IMG/VR virus record: IMGVR_UViG_3300029319_000474
Span: 1 to 24,970 of that record
DNA from: a virus
Direction: 5' to 3' (one strand)
Length of the DNA stretch: 24,970 nt
Shown here one piece after another: positions 1,383 through 21,539 of this stretch. Positions within the stretch are counted from its first letter, which is position 1, and each line of letters begins with the position of its first letter. The translations under genes and the position numbers were made by a program. Under the pieces are notes generated by a model. The model was not told the DNA's origin, did no database searches, and saw only the letters and a list, made by a program, of their open reading frames with translations.

Positions 1383-4300
1383 TTATTCCCTACCACCTCT
1401 GTAATCCTCACTTCTCTCATAATATCCTTGAGGTTCTGGACAAGCCTCTTGTTTTCCTACTTCCCAATCATGAATAAAAGGATCTTCTTTATAACATGAT
1501 GTCCAAAATATAGTTGTTAATCTCTCTAACCCATATAATTTATATTCAGGAAAATAAAAACTACCAAATGCTTGTTGATTAGATGCATTTATACTTGGAG
1601 GTCCTGTTACACCATAGTTGTTATACATAAGATGATGTTGACCTAATATTCTAAAATCACCCAAAACATCACAATTCATATCAATAGAGTTCTCCGCAAG
1701 GAATCCATGATTCAACCAACCCAATTCAATTTCATCACTATTATAATTACAACTTGGTTGGCCTTGTTGCCACATATCATATACATTTATCCAACCAGAT
1801 GAAGTACCTACATAATCAGGTGGTCTTGAATCTCCTGGTTGATATGCTGTTTGAAAATTACGAGGTTGTGGCCACATATTACATTTACAACATTTGTAAC
1901 AATTCTCACCAGATGTATCTATATCCCATAATCCAGGATGAGGTTGATCCCAATCAACAGTTTGAAAACCTGGTGCTGGAATAAATTCACCAGTTTGAGT
2001 ATCATGATATCCATTACCCTCTTGACAACATCCTGTTACCCCATTACCATCGTCATCTACAATGAGTTGACCAGCTTTATTATAAACATCATGAGTTAAA
2101 TAATGCCATCCTTCACCGTATTGATTACACATATGTACCATCACAACTGACATATCACCACCAAACACATAAGGATCTAAATCATTTTCATTAGATCCAT
2201 CATTAGTTGGTGGAGGACAATAAAAAGAAAAATCATGTAATCGATTATTTTTATTTCCAAAATCACATTGACATGGGTGTACATTTTCAAATGCATTAGC
2301 ACTACACTCTCTAAACGCCTCCATGGTGGCTTGTTGGTTATAAGGACCTTTTACAGCAGTATAGTATCTTGTACCAAATTCTCCATGTTCATTTGTGTCA
2401 TCAGTACATTGTCCACATGAATTTATAACATGTTGACAATTACATGGATTACCCTTATCAGTGATTTGTAAACGTGACATTGAATTTTGGTCACCAAAAG
2501 GATAAAATCCACCTTCCACACCACCTGGCCATATTTCATTTGATATATCTATGGGATGATACCACTCTGGATTAAACAACCACTCTGGAGTGTATTCCAC
2601 TAAAGAATCATAATTATAACCACCACTCCAATTAACATGTGCGAATCCTGATGATTGTGGATATACATTTTTACATTCAAAGCTTTCCATTACTGGTTCA
2701 TTCATCGCTCTATTTCTACAATAACTGAAATGCATTTCATTTTTACTTGCCATAGAGTACATTGAACCTGGATTAAAATTAATCACCTCTCCTGTATATG
2801 TACAAGAAGATACAGGAATACCAGCTTCAATACAAACTATATCCACATACTTGTCACATGTTAAGTCACCTTTACAATCATAATTTTTAAAACCCTCTTC
2901 TGGTATTTCATTATCCCAAAATCCATCTCCATCACCATCACCCATACATGGTTTTGGAGACATTCCATCAGGACCACTACCACCACAACAAGGGTCTCTA
3001 TGAAATCCAGGAGTACTTGGATCATCACCAACATCTCCATGTCCATGAGTTATTAGGCTTTCATCTATTTCTGTACTTGGATCATCCTCACCTGAATATT
3101 CTATATATCCCTCATCAATGTATGTACATCCTAACGCTTCACATTGTTCTTTATCTGTAATTTCTATAGGATTAAAACTTCCATCAGTACAAGATGGTAA
3201 GGGAGAAGCATTATCTCTACATCCAGCTGGATTGTTTATACCTGAACAATCTTCAACTAAACTCCATGGTACATGTGCTAGATTTTCAAATTGACAATCA
3301 GTGCCATCAGGACACCTATATATTAAAAGTAGAGGATCAAGTTGACAAGTCCCTCCATTTATACACCATCTAACAGGATCCATTATGAAATTACCTTGAG
3401 CATCAAATGCATTTTCATAACAACACACCTCTTCCGCACATCTCCCATATGTTTTATCATGACGCCAATGTTTACATCCAACACAATATGATTTACATGC
3501 ATCAGGATGTCCATCACCATCTTCATCACCACTACATACAGCTATTGGTTCACCATTTGAATGCCACATACCATTACGAAAATCAGGATAATTAATATCA
3601 TACAAATGTTTGTTATAACTCATAGACGCCTGATCACAACACACTTGTGTTAAGTTTTCAGGTTCTGGTGGTATATAATTTTCACAACAATAGTTATCAT
3701 CACTACCATCACACGCTATACAACACGCTCTTTCATATAATGGACTATAATTATCATAGTCTGGATCTGTACATCCCGTAAGTTCTATACATGCTGGGTC
3801 TACACCAAATCTACTACTTACACAATACCCTCCTGTAGTTCCAACTTCCACACATTTTCCTAATGGTCTAGTTCCCATAAATACATTATTTGAATCATAA
3901 ACAGGATCTACTCCACAAGAATCATCTATCCATGGTAAACATGATGAACCATTTAAAGGACCTCCTTGACATTGATACATTGGTTCAGTACCAAAACATT
4001 CACATTCACAAAACGCTGGGTCTTGATAACAAGCACAATCACGAACAGAATTACATTCTTCATCATCCACAGCTATCACTGGTGGTATTTCGAACTGACA
4101 AGTTCCATTATCACATGGTGCGTTTGGATCATAATTAGTAGCTGTTGGTTCTGTACACCCACAACAATAATCAGTGTCATTCGCATCAAATCCAGTTTCA
4201 CCACCTATACACCCACAAAACTCTGATACGAATGCCTCTCCATTGGAATCACCATTACAATCTGGACATCCATTAAGTGGGAATGAATTAAAATCATTTG

Positions 4301-5495
4301 GTTGTAAACACAAACTACCATTGTAACCTTCTGGTGGGTGGTCACAATATATACAAAATTCTCCTTGATATGAATGAGTTTCACAAACACTTTCAGTTAC
4401 AATTCCAAACTGTCCTAATTCTTGTAATAATTCACAAGGTATTTCCGGATCCTCTGCACATCTACCATTATCAGGATCAATAATACATGGTTGTAATTCT
4501 CCATCCACATTGAGATAATTTTGAGTTTCACAATATGTTATAGCTGATGTAACACAAACATTAGCGAACCACCATGCCAAACTATCTATATTATTTAAAT
4601 TACTTATTCCTCCAGTTGAAAAATCATTATAATCATCACATGAGGTTGCGGGTCTATTACCATCATATAATTCTTCACAACTAGCTCCCAATACATAACA
4701 TCTTGGATCTTTTCTACAACTATGTGTATCGCTTCCATATTCAAAACAATATGTATAACAAGCATATCCAATACAACCATTCTCTGGACCACCTGGTCTA
4801 TAATCTATTTCTTCAAGTGCTGGATAGCGTTCTGCATCACATGGTTCATTAAAAGTTCCAATTCCTTGAACGATTCCACCTGGCTCCCACCTACATCTTG
4901 GATCTGAATAACATGCGTTGGGACAAGAACATATAAAACTATATGGGTCATCATTAAACCATTGTGCAGTTATTGGTGCTCCAGGACTTGAATTATCTGG
5001 AGCATATATGAGATTTCTGTCATTTCCATATACATCTGCGCAACCACCGGGTTGAGCTCCCCATATACCACCATTTTCAGTATAAGGAAATGCTGATTCA
5101 AACCCATCATCAATATCCATATATCCAACAATTCTATATCCATATCCAATACCATCTATGATTTGGTCTTCAAAATCACCTGGAATTACCATTGGTGGTG
5201 TATTACAATATGTATCATTATTTCTATCTATTCTTGCACCATCTCTAAGTGATGTATCAGTTGGTCTTGATGGTGTAGATGGTCGTGTTGGTTGAACAGT
5301 CAATGGTATAGATGGACGTGTTGGTTGTATTATTTGATTATCTTCACTTGATACTCTTCTTGATTCAACGTCACCACTTGATGTTTTTCGTATAAATTCA
5401 CTTGTGCCATCCATATAAGTAATTACACGACTATTAGTTCTACTATCAAATCTAATCGACTTGATTTGTCGACTATTGTTTCTTCCATTGGCCAT
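1383..5495 (-). CDS. Giant cysteine-rich putative virion adhesin or fibre protein
   Basis: The product is 1370 residues, and this is the only gene of the window on the minus strand. I chose the ATG at 5495 because TAGGAAA lies nine bases upstream; an in-frame TTG at 5525 has no such support. About 96 cysteines are spread from residue 97 to near the C-terminus, often as CC, CxC or CxxC pairs. The first 95 residues lack cysteine and are basic and Pro/Thr/Ser-rich (PTRPS repeats). Near residue 445 is one GCTEPTATNYDP unit, a calcium or adhesion-like repeat known from marine Bacteroidetes surface proteins and some phage structural proteins. A diverged unit (GCTDPDYDNYSP) follows later. Asp/Gly runs such as DEDGDG (about 655) and DGDGDG (about 850) look like calcium loops. 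No signal peptide or membrane segment is visible. A tail fibre or adhesin stabilised by calcium or disulfides is the best inference; the exact role is unknown. Confidence 0.75.
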   Translation of the reverse strand: MANGRNNSRQIKSIRFDSRTNSRVITYMDGTSEFIRKTSSGDVESRRVSSEDNQIIQPTRPSIPLTVQPTRPSTPSRPTDTSLRDGARIDRNNDTYCNTPPMVIPGDFEDQIIDGIGYGYRIVGYMDIDDGFESAFPYTENGGIWGAQPGGCADVYGNDRNLIYAPDNSSPGAPITAQWFNDDPYSFICSCPNACYSDPRCRWEPGGIVQGIGTFNEPCDAERYPALEEIDYRPGGPENGCIGYACYTYCFEYGSDTHSCRKDPRCYVLGASCEELYDGNRPATSCDDYNDFSTGGISNLNNIDSLAWWFANVCVTSAITYCETQNYLNVDGELQPCIIDPDNGRCAEDPEIPCELLQELGQFGIVTESVCETHSYQGEFCIYCDHPPEGYNGSLCLQPNDFNSFPLNGCPDCNGDSNGEAFVSEFCGCIGGETGFDANDTDYCCGCTEPTATNYDPNAPCDNGTCQFEIPPVIAVDDEECNSVRDCACYQDPAFCECECFGTEPMYQCQGGPLNGSSCLPWIDDSCGVDPVYDSNNVFMGTRPLGKCVEVGTTGGYCVSSRFGVDPACIELTGCTDPDYDNYSPLYERACCIACDGSDDNYCCENYIPPEPENLTQVCCDQASMSYNKHLYDINYPDFRNGMWHSNGEPIAVCSGDEDGDGHPDACKSYCVGCKHWRHDKTYGRCAEEVCCYENAFDAQGNFIMDPVRWCINGGTCQLDPLLLIYRCPDGTDCQFENLAHVPWSLVEDCSGINNPAGCRDNASPLPSCTDGSFNPIEITDKEQCEALGCTYIDEGYIEYSGEDDPSTEIDESLITHGHGDVGDDPSTPGFHRDPCCGGSGPDGMSPKPCMGDGDGDGFWDNEIPEEGFKNYDCKGDLTCDKYVDIVCIEAGIPVSSCTYTGEVINFNPGSMYSMASKNEMHFSYCRNRAMNEPVMESFECKNVYPQSSGFAHVNWSGGYNYDSLVEYTPEWLFNPEWYHPIDISNEIWPGGVEGGFYPFGDQNSMSRLQITDKGNPCNCQHVINSCGQCTDDTNEHGEFGTRYYTAVKGPYNQQATMEAFRECSANAFENVHPCQCDFGNKNNRLHDFSFYCPPPTNDGSNENDLDPYVFGGDMSVVMVHMCNQYGEGWHYLTHDVYNKAGQLIVDDDGNGVTGCCQEGNGYHDTQTGEFIPAPGFQTVDWDQPHPGLWDIDTSGENCYKCCKCNMWPQPRNFQTAYQPGDSRPPDYVGTSSGWINVYDMWQQGQPSCNYNSDEIELGWLNHGFLAENSIDMNCDVLGDFRILGQHHLMYNNYGVTGPPSINASNQQAFGSFYFPEYKLYGLERLTTIFWTSCYKEDPFIHDWEVGKQEACPEPQGYYERSEDYRGGRE

Positions 5496-5526
5496 AGGGT
5501 GGTTTCCTAAATTATAATTATTCAAA

Positions 5527-17026: not shown

Positions 17027-18466
17027 ATGAAATATTTTTACGAAAGAAGTGGATTATTAGAATCCGAAATTAATATAAACTTTGAAGATTTGTTATGGAT
17101 GGATTCAGAACAAACAACTGAATGGATTGAAACTATGAGATTGTTTATCTTGAATCAATGGGATGAACATGGTATACCACCTACAATTGGACAAGATGAA
17201 GATACTATAAAAAAGAATTTTTCTAAATTAAGAGATTATTCCATTCAGAAGTTTTTAATATCTGATGATGATGGCAATGAAAATATTATCAAGAATTATA
17301 ATAAGTTTGCATCAGGTGTGAATCAATTTTTTCCAACTATGTTGAAAACTGTGGTTGGTAATTCTTCAATATATGAGTGGTTTACAGATGAGTACAAAGA
17401 TAAATTTCATAAAGTCATATTAAGAATATTGAAAAGAGATTCAATGTATAATTATTCTAAATGTATTCTTAAAGATGAGGAATTATCAGAAAATATATTT
17501 GTAACTCAACACAAAGATAATGGTCAAATTCAAGTAGATAATTATATGACTATGACTGCTTCAGAAATAAGAAAACTTTCCAATAAATGTAAAACCAATT
17601 TATCTGATAATTTTGATGATGAAATTGATGGAGTTAAATATAAATTTTTAGTTCATAAATTTGAACTAGGTAAAAAGATATTTCCATCTGGTATTCAGGC
17701 ATTTAGATTAGGACTTGGACAACCAGCTGTAAACTTTCCACCATTAACTGCAAGATGGATTTATGAAAACTATACCAAACACATTCCAAAAGAAGAAACA
17801 CTTAACATATATGACCCAAGTAGTGGTTGGGGTGGTAGAATACTTGGAGCTATGTCCTCACATCGTAAAATACATTATATTGGAACAGACCCCAATACAG
17901 ATAATTTTATTGATGATTTGGGTATAACAAGATATGAATATGTAGCTAAATTTTTCAATGATAATTGTTTGGAATCAAATTCTTTTTGGGAAGAAGACAA
18001 AAATACTTATCATGTATTTCAAGAGGGTTCAGAACATATTGGTAATCATCCAGATTTTCAACAATACAAAGGTAAGTTGGATTTGGTATTTACATCACCA
18101 CCTTACTTTGATAGAGAACAATATTCTAATGATGAAGAACAATCATTCAAATCATATCCACAATATGATGATTGGAGAGACAACTTTTTAAAACCAACAT
18201 TAGAAAATGCATTTAATAGTTTGAAAAACGATAGGTATTTGTTATGGAATATTGCTGATATTAAAATTGGTAAGGATAAATTTTATCCACTTGAACAAGA
18301 TTCTATAGATATTTTAACCAATCTTGGTATGGAATATCAAGGTAAATTAAAAATGTTAATGACATCAATGGTTGGAGTTGACCAATCAAATGTAAAAAAT
18401 TCTGTAATTATTGAAAAAAAGGCTTGGAAGTATGAGCCAATCTTCGTATTTTATAAGAGTAAATAA
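17027..18466 (+). CDS. DNA methyltransferase with SPPY motif
   Basis: The product is 479 residues. The AdoMet-binding motif DPSSGWGGR begins at D263, and the catalytic TSPPYFDRE motif has S357-P-P-Y360. Motif I precedes motif IV. SPPY is usual in N4-cytosine and some N6-adenine amino methyltransferases, so an exocyclic amino group is the likely target. The first 200 residues show no motif I know and may form a recognition or partner domain. The leader is A-rich without a Shine-Dalgarno, unlike most genes here, and the PLP-enzyme gene starts nine bases downstream, also without one. Together they look like an inserted two-gene cassette. No classical restriction enzyme gene is paired with it; a GIY-YIG/ParB-like protein follows at 19353. 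DNA as substrate is inferred from the motif. Confidence 0.8.
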   Translation: MKYFYERSGLLESEININFEDLLWMDSEQTTEWIETMRLFILNQWDEHGIPPTIGQDEDTIKKNFSKLRDYSIQKFLISDDDGNENIIKNYNKFASGVNQFFPTMLKTVVGNSSIYEWFTDEYKDKFHKVILRILKRDSMYNYSKCILKDEELSENIFVTQHKDNGQIQVDNYMTMTASEIRKLSNKCKTNLSDNFDDEIDGVKYKFLVHKFELGKKIFPSGIQAFRLGLGQPAVNFPPLTARWIYENYTKHIPKEETLNIYDPSSGWGGRILGAMSSHRKIHYIGTDPNTDNFIDDLGITRYEYVAKFFNDNCLESNSFWEEDKNTYHVFQEGSEHIGNHPDFQQYKGKLDLVFTSPPYFDREQYSNDEEQSFKSYPQYDDWRDNFLKPTLENAFNSLKNDRYLLWNIADIKIGKDKFYPLEQDSIDILTNLGMEYQGKLKMLMTSMVGVDQSNVKNSVIIEKKAWKYEPIFVFYKSK

Positions 18467-18475
18467 TTTTATATA

Positions 18476-19228
18476 ATGAATAATTTCTTAGACTATAAAT
18501 ATAATGACATCAAATGTGATGTAGAATTACCAAAACCAATCATAGAAGATTTTGATGGTATACAAGTTGTTCGTGATGATTTACTTAATGGTGGAACTAA
18601 ACGAAGAGCTTTTACAATTTATGTTGCGTCATTACCTGATGTGGATGAGTTTGTTTACGCATCACCTCGACAAGGATATGCACAATTATCATTGGCATAT
18701 GCATGTAGAGATTTAAACAAAAAATGCACAGTAACGATTCCAAAAGGTAAAAAAACTTGGTTAACCATAGAAGCAGAGAAATTAGGTTGTAACATCATTG
18801 AAGTACCTATGGGTTATTTATCTAATATTCAGGCTAAAGCAAGATATTATTGTGAAGATAATAATGCACATTTAATTCCATTTGGTGGAGACCATCCAAT
18901 CATCATTGAAGCCATGTGTGAAGCTGCAAAGAGTTTGAACATCAAACCAAAAGAAGTTTGGACTGTTATGAGTAGTGGTGTTTTGAGTAGAGGATTACAG
19001 ATGGCTTGGCCAGATGCAAAAGTATATGGTGTAAGAATTGGACACAAAACAACAAAAAGAGAAAGAGGTAGAGCTGAAACTTTCATATCTAAATATAAGT
19101 TTCAACAAGATTGTAAAGAATCAGAAAGACCTCCATTTCCATCTTCACTAACCTATGATAGTAAAGCATGGAGTTTTATAAAAGAACATGCTTCAGATGG
19201 AGCATTATTTTGGAATGTAGGAAAATAA
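18476..19228 (+). CDS. Short fold-type-II PLP-dependent enzyme
   Basis: The product is 250 residues, clearly shorter than typical ACC deaminase or cysteine-synthase relatives (about 300-340). K42 in LLNGGTKRRA matches the PLP-binding Lys of the ACC deaminase/D-cysteine desulfhydrase group, whose motif is GGNK. SPRQGYAQLSLAYACRDL near residue 63 corresponds to the substrate-loop helix, and VMSSGVLSRGLQMAWPDAKV near 163 to the glycine-rich phosphate loop, here with Ser replacing some Gly. It sits nine bases behind the methyltransferase gene with no Shine-Dalgarno, so translation is probably coupled. The context suggests addition or change of an amino-acid-like group on a base or nucleotide, but metabolism of a free amino acid is equally possible. 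Confidence 0.75.
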   Translation: MNNFLDYKYNDIKCDVELPKPIIEDFDGIQVVRDDLLNGGTKRRAFTIYVASLPDVDEFVYASPRQGYAQLSLAYACRDLNKKCTVTIPKGKKTWLTIEAEKLGCNIIEVPMGYLSNIQAKARYYCEDNNAHLIPFGGDHPIIIEAMCEAAKSLNIKPKEVWTVMSSGVLSRGLQMAWPDAKVYGVRIGHKTTKRERGRAETFISKYKFQQDCKESERPPFPSSLTYDSKAWSFIKEHASDGALFWNVGK

Positions 19229-19236
19229 AAAAAAGC

Positions 19237-19266
19237 TTGTTTTATGTATTAAAACTTATATATATT
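19237..19266 (+). promoter_or_regulatory. Sigma70-type promoter
   Basis: TTGTTT (19237-19242), an 18-bp spacer and TATATT (19261-19266) are present, preceded by an A-rich run ending in GC as in sister promoters. The ATG of the next gene lies 86 bases after the -10 box, leaving room for a structured leader. Confidence 0.7.
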
Positions 19267-19272
19267 ATACAG

Positions 19273-19314
19273 AGTTTCATAAACACTAAAGTAGTGTTAA
19301 TAAAAAATGAAACT
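19273..19314 (+). promoter_or_regulatory. Structured 5' leader of the GIY-YIG/ParB gene
   Basis: AGTTTCAT (19273-19280) pairs with ATGAAACT (19307-19314). Nested inside, AACACTA (19282-19288) pairs with TAGTGTT (19292-19298) around AAG, with an A-rich internal loop on the 3' side. The structure starts at about the expected RNA 5' end. It could stabilise the RNA, bind a protein or control translation. Confidence 0.55.
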
Positions 19315-19329
19315 AGTAATTAGATTAAT

Positions 19330-19337
19330 TATAAATA
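19330..19337 (+). promoter_or_regulatory. T4-like late element TATAAATA
   Basis: TATAAATA is an exact match to the T4 late -10 element and lies 15 bases before ATG 19353, just ahead of AAGGA. The short distance leaves little leader. It may be chance. Confidence 0.25.
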
Positions 19338-19352
19338 TGAAGGAAAAATAAT

Positions 19353-20813
19353 ATGAATAAAAGTAAATTAGCATGGAATTTAGAAACAATAAAAAATCCA
19401 CAAACACGACCTAAACAAATAGTTAAAATAGATGGTAATTTTCAAATGCCGTCAGGTATGAACTCAACTGTTTATAAATTTACAAACTTGGAAAATGATA
19501 AATGGTATATTGGTTACCATAAAGAAACTGATAAAGCGTATTTTTCATCAACAACTAATGAGGAGTTTAAAATTGTTTTAGCTAATCTTAATTCTAAATT
19601 AAAATTTGAAATTTTAGAATGGGGTTCTGTTGAAGAATGTAAGCATATGGAATACGAATTGTTAACTAAGTATGATGCAAAAAATAATCCAATGTCTTAT
19701 AATCTACATAACGGACATCCAGGTAAACCTAAACTAAAAATTAATTCAATTAAAGAACTTGTAAATGATATAGACATACTTAGAAAAAGAAAAGATATTA
19801 CTTTAACAGAATTAAGTAAAGAAAAACATAGAAAAGGACCTAAGTTCGCCAAAGAATTAAGTATGATAGATACTTTACAAACAAGAGATTTACAAATAGA
19901 TAATAAAAATTTACAATATGTCATGGATAGAATAGAAAATCAAATAGGTACTTATGATTTACCAGTATTTTTAGCGGATATCCAACAAGATGGTAAATAT
20001 TATGAACTTTTATTAATAAGTGGTAATCATACGATTACCGCTCATATTAAACTTGGTAATCAATATCCGAATACACCTCTTGAATACATTGTAATTCCCA
20101 AAGAAATACACCAAAGATTTTCAGATATGGAAATAAGAATGATTTCTAATGATTTAAATTCTAATTACAATGGGGGTAAAGCTTTTTCAAAAGGTGATGC
20201 CATTAAAGAGTGTTTAGGACATCATAATTATGGTTATTCTTGGAATACAGCTGAAATGCAACGTAGATTTATGAATTTAGGTTTAACAAAAAATCAAGTT
20301 AGTGGTGTTGTAAATGAGGTATTGGATAAGATTGAAAAGAAAAGACAAAAAGAAGCTGGTATGGTTGTAATGAACTATGATAGTAAACATAAAGATGTTC
20401 TTGAGTATGAAATAAAACACAGACAATCGGAAGATACTTTTGTGTACACTACAGCTTCAACAACCCCAAATTTAAATCGTATTTTTGATAAATTTATTGA
20501 TGAACAAAAGAAAAGATTTGAAAAAAATAAAAAACTAAAAACTAAAATATTAGTTCTTGTTCATCATTCATCTGAACATACTAAAAAACAATTCCCATCA
20601 ATTAAAAAATCAATCTTAACAGTTCAAAATATTAATACATCAACAGATTCTTTATTAACAGATTTTAAGGAAAAAATTTCAAAACAAATTTTTCATCCTG
20701 AAATTACTTTTATAGAATTACCAATGTATAGAAAAGACATTGATGTTAAAAAGTTAATAAATAACAAAATAAAAAACAGTGGGGGGAGAGATCTCTCCCC
20801 CTATTTAAAATAG
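19353..20813 (+). CDS. GIY-YIG nuclease fused to ParB-like domain
   Basis: The product is 486 residues. An N-terminal GIY-YIG domain (about 38-122) shows VYKFTN, then WYIGYH at 51-56, a Glu in MEYELL near 100, and a closing Asn in YNLHNGHPG. From about 200 comes a ParB/Srx-like domain: LPVFLADIQQDG, then ISGNHTITAHIKL at 222-234, in place of the usual GxHR. A helical part with NYGYSWNTAEMQRRF and QVSGVVNEVLDKIEKK (about 280-330) may be a DNA-binding HTH. The C-terminal 120 residues form an unknown domain. ParB-like domains often accompany phage methyltransferases, so it may act with 17027-19228. It has its own promoter and a structured leader. The Arg of the ParB motif is replaced by Thr, so nuclease or CTPase activity of that domain is uncertain. 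Confidence 0.7.
   Translation: MNKSKLAWNLETIKNPQTRPKQIVKIDGNFQMPSGMNSTVYKFTNLENDKWYIGYHKETDKAYFSSTTNEEFKIVLANLNSKLKFEILEWGSVEECKHMEYELLTKYDAKNNPMSYNLHNGHPGKPKLKINSIKELVNDIDILRKRKDITLTELSKEKHRKGPKFAKELSMIDTLQTRDLQIDNKNLQYVMDRIENQIGTYDLPVFLADIQQDGKYYELLLISGNHTITAHIKLGNQYPNTPLEYIVIPKEIHQRFSDMEIRMISNDLNSNYNGGKAFSKGDAIKECLGHHNYGYSWNTAEMQRRFMNLGLTKNQVSGVVNEVLDKIEKKRQKEAGMVVMNYDSKHKDVLEYEIKHRQSEDTFVYTTASTTPNLNRIFDKFIDEQKKRFEKNKKLKTKILVLVHHSSEHTKKQFPSIKKSILTVQNINTSTDSLLTDFKEKISKQIFHPEITFIELPMYRKDIDVKKLINNKIKNSGGRDLSPYLK
20782..20801 (+). repeat. Perfect 20-bp GC-rich palindrome
   Basis: GGGGGAGAG-AT-CTCTCCCCC is a perfect palindrome inside the last codons of the GIY-YIG/ParB gene, in otherwise AT-rich DNA. 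A second palindrome, CTATTT-A-AAATAG, follows at 20801-20813 and contains the stop codon. The RNA would form a very stable hairpin just before the HD gene's ribosome-binding site. It may be a processing or attenuation signal or a protein-binding site. Confidence 0.75.
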
Positions 20814-20822
20814 AGGATTAAA

Positions 20823-21539
20823 ATGAGAAAACTAACAGCAGAAGAAATTCAAAACAATTGGAAAAAGTTAATGGATACCATTGAAGGTTTTATTAGTGAT
20901 GATAGAAAAGAAAACCTATTGAAGATGTATGATTACTTTCAAGATAGAATGATGTTAGCACCTGCTAGTGCTAAAGGACACTTTCATAATGCAATGCCTG
21001 GTGGATATGTTGAGCATGTTCTTCACATCGTAAGACATTCACTTGAATTAAAACAATTGTGGGAAAAGAATGGAGCTAAGATTAATTTTACAGATGAAGA
21101 ATTAGTGTTTGCAGCTCTACATCACGACTTGGGTAAGGTTGGTGATTTAGAACATGATTATTATATACCACAAAATTCAGAGTGGCACAGAAAGAATCGT
21201 GGTGAGATTTTTAAACACAATCCAGCTTTACAATACATGAAAGTACCTGATAGGGGATTATGGTTATTACAACACTTTGGTGTTAAGGTTACTAATAATG
21301 AATACATTGGAATTAAATTAACAGATGGATTATATGATGATGCTAATAAAGCATATTACATGACGTATAATCCTGAATGGCAGCTTCGTTCCAATATGTT
21401 TTACATTCTACATCAAGCTGATATGATGGCTACTCATATAGAATATGATATGTGGTATAGAAATGATGAAGAACAAGAAGATAAACAAGAGCAAAAATTA
21501 AAAGAAATCAAAAATGAATTTAATAAATTATTTGCATAA
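20823..21539 (+). CDS. HD-domain phosphohydrolase
   Basis: The product is 238 residues. The HD metal site is clear: H65 in GYVEHVLHI, H101-D102 in ALHHDLGK and D200 in HQADMMATHIE. The length and the PGGYVEH / HHDLGK wording match HD hydrolases found in T4-like marine phages. HD enzymes hydrolyse phosphate esters such as dNTPs or cyclic nucleotides; the substrate here is not evident. GAGGA precedes ATG 20823, nine bases after the previous stop and directly behind the strong palindrome. The C-terminus is a charged helix. It leads a run of closely spaced genes that ends with the late sigma factor. Confidence 0.85.
   Translation: MRKLTAEEIQNNWKKLMDTIEGFISDDRKENLLKMYDYFQDRMMLAPASAKGHFHNAMPGGYVEHVLHIVRHSLELKQLWEKNGAKINFTDEELVFAALHHDLGKVGDLEHDYYIPQNSEWHRKNRGEIFKHNPALQYMKVPDRGLWLLQHFGVKVTNNEYIGIKLTDGLYDDANKAYYMTYNPEWQLRSNMFYILHQADMMATHIEYDMWYRNDEEQEDKQEQKLKEIKNEFNKLFA

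Follow-up and report, generated by a model that had tools for sequence, protein, structure and literature searches.

In a 24,970-bp virus fragment of IMG/VR (record IMGVR_UViG_3300029319_000474; this whole stretch is called the window), which is derived from a marine virus of bacteria, a methyltransferase (MTase)-fold enzyme, a pyridoxal 5'-phosphate (PLP) enzyme and a GIY-YIG protein are encoded by three successive genes. We read this locus, with a probability of roughly 0.55, as a phage DNA-base hypermodification cassette, in which a base would receive the 3-amino-3-carboxypropyl (acp) group of S-adenosylmethionine (SAM) through the MTase-fold enzyme, with subsequent decarboxylation of this group on the DNA by the PLP enzyme. 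The basis consists of homologies, gene linkage, gene fusions and a SAM-binding loop that depends on the partner gene, and from these we infer the chemistry. The kit of MTase and PLP enzyme is widespread and apparently undescribed, and it probably puts an amino-acid-like or amine group on DNA bases; no account of this cassette or of acp- or aminopropyl-bearing DNA was found in the open-access literature. A wider proposal, whose chances we consider even, is an undescribed phage chemistry in which MTase-fold enzymes move the aminocarboxypropyl arm of SAM (with SpeD, the aminopropyl arm) onto DNA bases and the tailoring enzymes (PLP decarboxylase, SpeD, GNAT acetyltransferase and Asp/Asn-type hydroxylase) are interchangeable.

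The PLP enzyme and the methyltransferase

The three open reading frames (ORFs) exist at the positions first described for them; all are on the + strand, with intergenic gaps of 9 nt between the MTase and PLP genes and 124 nt between the PLP and GIY-YIG genes. Judging from its sequence, the fold-type II PLP enzyme (18476..19228, 250 aa) belongs to the family of gp52 of Pseudomonas phage M6, which is the PLP enzyme of M6 DNA thymine hypermodification. It matches PALP (PF00291, E 7e-9) in Pfam and phrog_7093 (E 1.2e-35) in PHROGs, and M6 gp52 falls in the same PHROG (E 2e-159). The two families were aligned over their full length by hhalign (Prob 99.4, E 1e-21), and a lysine, the SSGT/SSGV loop, YDxKAW and FWN are kept between them. 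Lys42 in the motif GGTKxR (codon at 18599..18601), the predicted Schiff-base lysine for PLP, is conserved throughout 132 members of the PLP family and aligns with Lys36 of M6 gp52, which Lee et al. reportedly described as the decarboxylase of a thymine-linked amino acid. The AlphaFold2 model has a predicted local distance difference test score (pLDDT) of 91, and its nearest PDB folds found by Foldseek are D-cysteine desulfhydrase (E 7e-12), a homologue of 1-aminocyclopropane-1-carboxylate (ACC) deaminase and threonine deaminases.

The genomic surroundings of the relatives point in the same direction. In Bordetella phage CN2 and in M6, a gene annotated as "threonine dehydratase" adjoins "DNA repair photolyase", kinase-like and thymidylate-synthase-type genes, and in the announcement of phage SN1 this PLP enzyme is listed with the genes that modify bases in M6-like phages with hypermodified thymine (PMC9476957). 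The enzyme of the window is predicted to act on an amino-acid adduct on DNA and to decarboxylate it. Spread of the PLP family on plasmids was looked for and gave no match. One related record has the PLP gene in two overlapping ORFs (L050:3746-4520), reflecting a frameshift or a sequencing error.

The MTase-fold enzyme, which we call A-type (17027..18466, 479 aa), matches N6_N4_Mtase (PF01555, E 1.5e-6) and phrog_12517 (E 2e-14), and its group is homologous to MTases fused with a ParB domain (ParB-MTases; hhalign Prob 96.3, E 1.6e-9). Motif IV, of the catalytic amino-MTase type, is TSPPYFDREQYS (18092..18127) and contains TSPPY, as in the N6/N4 amino DNA methyltransferases with (D/N/S)PP(Y/F); the form [ST][SC]PPYxDxExYSxD is common to the window MTase and the ParB-MTases. 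The SAM-binding loop of motif I, DPSSGWGGRILG (17813..17848), has GG and Arg like the types that are linked to PLP genes or have no partner, unlike the GD..F of types linked to SpeD. Core residues are invariant in an alignment across 16 relatives, and the structural model is of moderate quality (pLDDT 71.6) with Rossmann MTases as Foldseek matches. No ParB domain was found within the protein, no identity was obtained for N-terminal residues of about 1-220, and PDB searches with single sequences of the MTase, the PLP enzyme and the third gene product gave nothing useful. We predict that this enzyme is a SAM-dependent DNA base alkyl (aminocarboxypropyl) transferase.

Two further arrangements of MTases were observed. 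The same marine phages have a second, B-type MTase of about 410 aa with the loop DFSxGWGDR, which sometimes directly adjoins the PLP gene (for example, L006:11423-12652, L036:8483-9733 and L047:6767-7999), and a tandem pair of window-type MTases is found beside PLP and hydroxylase-type genes (L583, L585, L586, 9986-13158).

Linkage across phages and alternative partners

Another branch of this family of PLP enzymes, which is non-pelagic and consists of Microcystis phage Mae-JY30 and its relatives, gave a set of 83 loci. An MTase of the CPPYxDLEVYSD family adjoins the PLP gene in 81 of them, and the two loci without an adjoining MTase start within or right at the PLP gene. A ParB domain is also present in 71 of these loci, and the order is nearly always ParB, MTase and PLP. 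The three form a single polypeptide in Erythrobacter phages R6L and ZS04, with the PLP domain inserted between motifs I and IV of the MTase, and in Pseudanabaena phage Pam4 (L191:44052-46541) a divergent PLP domain lies within the MTase at the same place. In the window's marine relatives, the MTase gene of the window type is frequently adjacent to the PLP gene or overlaps with it, and it is present in 12/12 long records with PLP, in some of them 7-9 kb away. Separately, Mycobacterium phage Vincenzo (L196:1406-2275) has a divergent PLP domain, annotated as "carboxylate deaminase", after a ParB-MTase.

The first-pass annotation had suggested that the MTase and PLP genes could belong to a DNA-modification module, and this is supported by the homology to the M6 enzyme, the linkage across many viruses and the insertion within MTases. 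It had also taken independent occurrence of the genes as a sign against such a module; this was found on one side, because window-type MTases often occur without PLP, and on the other side the loci found to have PLP but not this MTase are those of hypermodifying phages like M6 and, to the extent examined, otherwise just fragments. Most of the compared records are fragments, so a missing partner counts for little. Searches with iterated profiles of M6 gp51, gp53, gp54, gp55, gp56 and gp58 had no match in the complete genomes of R6L, Mae-JY30 and Pam4 or in the remaining retrieved loci that do not belong to the M6 group; by contrast, the PLP profile found all those loci in the same searches. A full M6-style pathway was therefore rejected, and the substrate of the PLP enzyme apparently does not come from the M6 route, so that the cassette is probably self-contained and makes its own adduct.

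The slot of the PLP gene can be taken by SpeD, the SAM decarboxylase. In Pseudomonas phage ZRG1 and Croceibacter phage P2559S, SpeD genes (Pfam AdoMet_dc, E 2e-23 and 2e-19, respectively) are located directly 3' of PLP-free relatives of the ParB-MTases. The SAM loop is D.FAGD[TS]VFG in SpeD-linked MTases and DPFAGG[SP]VRG in those that are linked to PLP or lack a partner. A scan with one SpeD sequence gave one locus, and two pattern scans of IMG/VR by the MTase loop alone, blind to the partner, were used instead; the following counts are for loci with enough flanking sequence. MTases with FAGDxVFG were accompanied by SpeD in 88/91 loci and by PLP in 0/91, and those with DPFAGGxVRG by PLP in 25/94 and by SpeD in 0/94 (Fisher p of 5e-50 for SpeD and 1e-8 for PLP). 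SpeD was 3' of the MTase in 154/154 examined cases, mostly overlapping with it, and nearly all had the ESH processing motif. No AdoMet_dc was found in the 12 records related to the window. In the tree, SpeD-linked MTases form one clade (SH-like approximate likelihood ratio test, 99) and those linked to PLP are dispersed among forms without a partner; the PLP gene resembles an accessory that has been repeatedly gained or lost. The large clade of phage ParB-MTases with FAGDxVFG and SpeD directly 3' (L195:2856-4701, L198:2856-4497 and L200-L389) is an independent candidate for DNA aminopropylation.

Two other types of partner were found, and many of their genes are immediately 3' of the MTase. 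A GNAT acetyltransferase gene directly follows the window-type MTase in 12 loci, and a protein of the Asp/Asn beta-hydroxylase type (PF05118, E 1e-7 to 1e-10 where tested), which sometimes co-occurs with PLP, is encoded in 20 window-type MTase loci. Genes of one or both types come directly after the MTase in L558-L569, L571, L575, L584 and L592. The partner genes suggest that the group transferred by this MTase family is other than methyl: since PLP, SpeD, GNAT and hydroxylase partners all handle amines or amino acids, and their activities have a SAM-derived amino-acid side group as the shared element, we infer acp transfer by the MTase.

Proposed mechanism and competing explanations

In the proposed scheme, the MTase-fold enzyme would bind DNA, probably flip out a cytosine or an adenine, and move the acp group of SAM to the exocyclic amine in its SPPY-type pocket. 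The PLP enzyme, by homology to M6 gp52, would then form a Schiff base via Lys42 with the DNA-borne amino acid and decarboxylate the acp to an aminopropyl group. This order is preferred because the PLP-linked MTases retain the GG..R loop. In the sister systems with SpeD, SAM would be decarboxylated first and aminopropyl then transferred, giving the same end product, and in others acp may be tailored by the N-acetyltransferase and the Asp/Asn-type beta-hydroxylase. The modification would serve to shield the viral DNA against bacterial defences such as restriction. If the scheme is true, two genes by themselves provide a route to DNA bases that bear an amino acid or an amine, with SAM as the carbon source, not hydroxymethyl-uracil chemistry; it would also account for the phage SpeD genes beside ParB-methyltransferases and provide enzymes for putting amine handles on DNA. 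Specific nucleoside masses are predicted for several isolated phages, and the reading is thus directly testable.

Several points weigh against acp transfer followed by decarboxylation. The MTase of the window has diverged, and whether its loop Arg is equivalent depends on the alignment, the homologous position being uncertain. Since the SpeD-linked MTases are one clade, the correlation of loop and SpeD represents about one evolutionary event phylogenetically, and the clade, a diverse one, has retained it ever since. Among the SpeD homologues of phages there are some with ornithine or arginine in place of SAM as the substrate for decarboxylation (PMC9992855, PMC10407285). PLP is absent from 69/94 of the R-type (FAGGxVRG) MTases, and with most of them lacking it, plain methylation is a possible activity of this family.

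Hypermodification with a different small molecule deserves consideration, though we regard it as rather unlikely: the MTase would methylate or otherwise prepare the base, and the PLP enzyme would activate a free amino acid by beta- or gamma-replacement for joining to it, or racemise or deaminate the adduct. Most PLP enzymes of fold type II catalyse beta-replacement, deamination or racemisation, in agreement with the nearest PDB folds of D-cysteine desulfhydrase and threonine deaminase, and the linkage and the insertion within MTases fit any DNA-linked role; however, in sequence the M6 gp52 family is the nearest functional relative, and it belongs to a DNA modification pathway, and SpeD in the same slot indicates SAM-derived groups. 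The same exchange of SpeD and PLP, which share a gene position and were never found together, could mean that the PLP enzyme decarboxylates SAM itself as a stand-in for SpeD and that decarboxylated SAM serves the MTase as aminopropyl donor. We find this improbable, as the FAGGSVRG loop of partner-less relatives persists in the PLP-linked MTases and the SpeD-linked ones have FAGDxVFG, and M6-type relatives reportedly act on DNA-linked adducts.

The remaining explanation combines an ordinary DNA MTase, a PLP enzyme as unrelated metabolic cargo, which the first-pass annotation had kept as an option, and a homing-type GIY-YIG nuclease. The PF01555 match, the match of the GIY-YIG protein to a homing-endonuclease family and the many related MTases without PLP are compatible with it, but PLP lies within the MTase in R6L and ZS04 and as a divergent domain in Pam4, the linkage holds in 81/83 loci and 12/12 long records, and the enzyme is homologous to the M6 modification enzyme. 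Metabolic cargo is thus very improbable, and we rejected it because the PLP enzymes are fused with and linked to MTases across loci.

Accessory genes and comparison with known systems

The third gene of the window (19353..20813, + strand, 486 aa) encodes a GIY-YIG protein with a weakly ParB-like segment. Its residues 36-164 (19458..19844) match phrog_314, "homing endonuclease" (E 2e-8), and the GIY-YIG active-site residues Tyr41, Tyr52, Glu100 and Asn117/120 are invariant in the alignment of five family members. The comparison of the other segment with MTase-linked ParB domains by hhalign gave E 0.007 at a probability of only 5.5%, and its ParB identity is weakly supported. The replacement of the usual Arg by Thr in this segment, which had been pointed out previously, is real: the motif is SGNHT (20019..20033), GNHT is invariant in the five relatives, and GNHT is also found in ParB domains of MTases of the Mycobacterium phages Vincenzo and prophiGD43A-5 and of Pam4. 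The gene adjoins PLP in some marine loci, is between MTase and PLP in L535 and L536, and stands beside the GNAT/hydroxylase versions in L561-L565. It is present in a minority of loci, next to PLP or GNAT versions, and the idea of a constant nuclease partner directed against unmodified DNA was not upheld, as none of the analyses gave a sign of such discrimination; the gene is an optional accessory and most likely encodes a nuclease or a DNA-targeting factor.

An HD-domain phosphohydrolase-like gene follows in the window (20823-21539; PF01966 E 0.0025, below its cut-off; phrog_5889 E 3e-13) and most of the marine relatives also have it close to PLP and MTase. The locus is flanked by ordinary tailed-phage genes, such as those for PhoH and peptide deformylase (Pfam/PHROGs), and a cysteine-rich repetitive ORF of 1,380 aa occupies positions 1383-5525 on the - strand.

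The cassette shares features with four known systems. With the M6 thymidine hypermodification (gp51-gp58) it has in common the full-length PLP homologue with the same key invariant residues and the context of phage DNA modification; however, homologues of the hydroxymethylase, the 5-hydroxymethyluracil (5hmU)-DNA kinase, aGPT-PPlase and the radical-SAM enzyme are not present in the complete genomes with the cassette (the window itself is a fragment), and the partner of the PLP enzyme here is a ParB/MTase-fold enzyme. ACC deaminase, D-cysteine desulfhydrase and threonine dehydratase have the same fold and Schiff-base lysine motif, but the PLP enzyme of the window is only about 15% identical to them, is shorter (250 aa), has motifs of its own (SGxLxR, YDxKAW and FWN) and sits in a DNA-modification gene context. 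The ParB-fused N6/N4 MTases (PF02195 and PF01555, PMC12704722) share the MTase domain family, the ParB domain and often the gene order near terminase genes; the cassette differs by the addition of PLP or SpeD, with the PLP domain inside the MTase in R6L, ZS04 and Pam4. The carboxymethylcytosine system CmoA/CmoX/CmoY (PMC12783734) is also a phage MTase system with a modified SAM-derived donor, a DNA handle, tailoring enzymes and ParB genes nearby. Its MTase is a C5-cytosine enzyme fed by carboxy-SAM (Cx-SAM) and combined with an amide ligase, whereas the MTase here is of the SPPY/CPPY amino type and is accompanied by PLP, SpeD, GNAT or hydroxylase.

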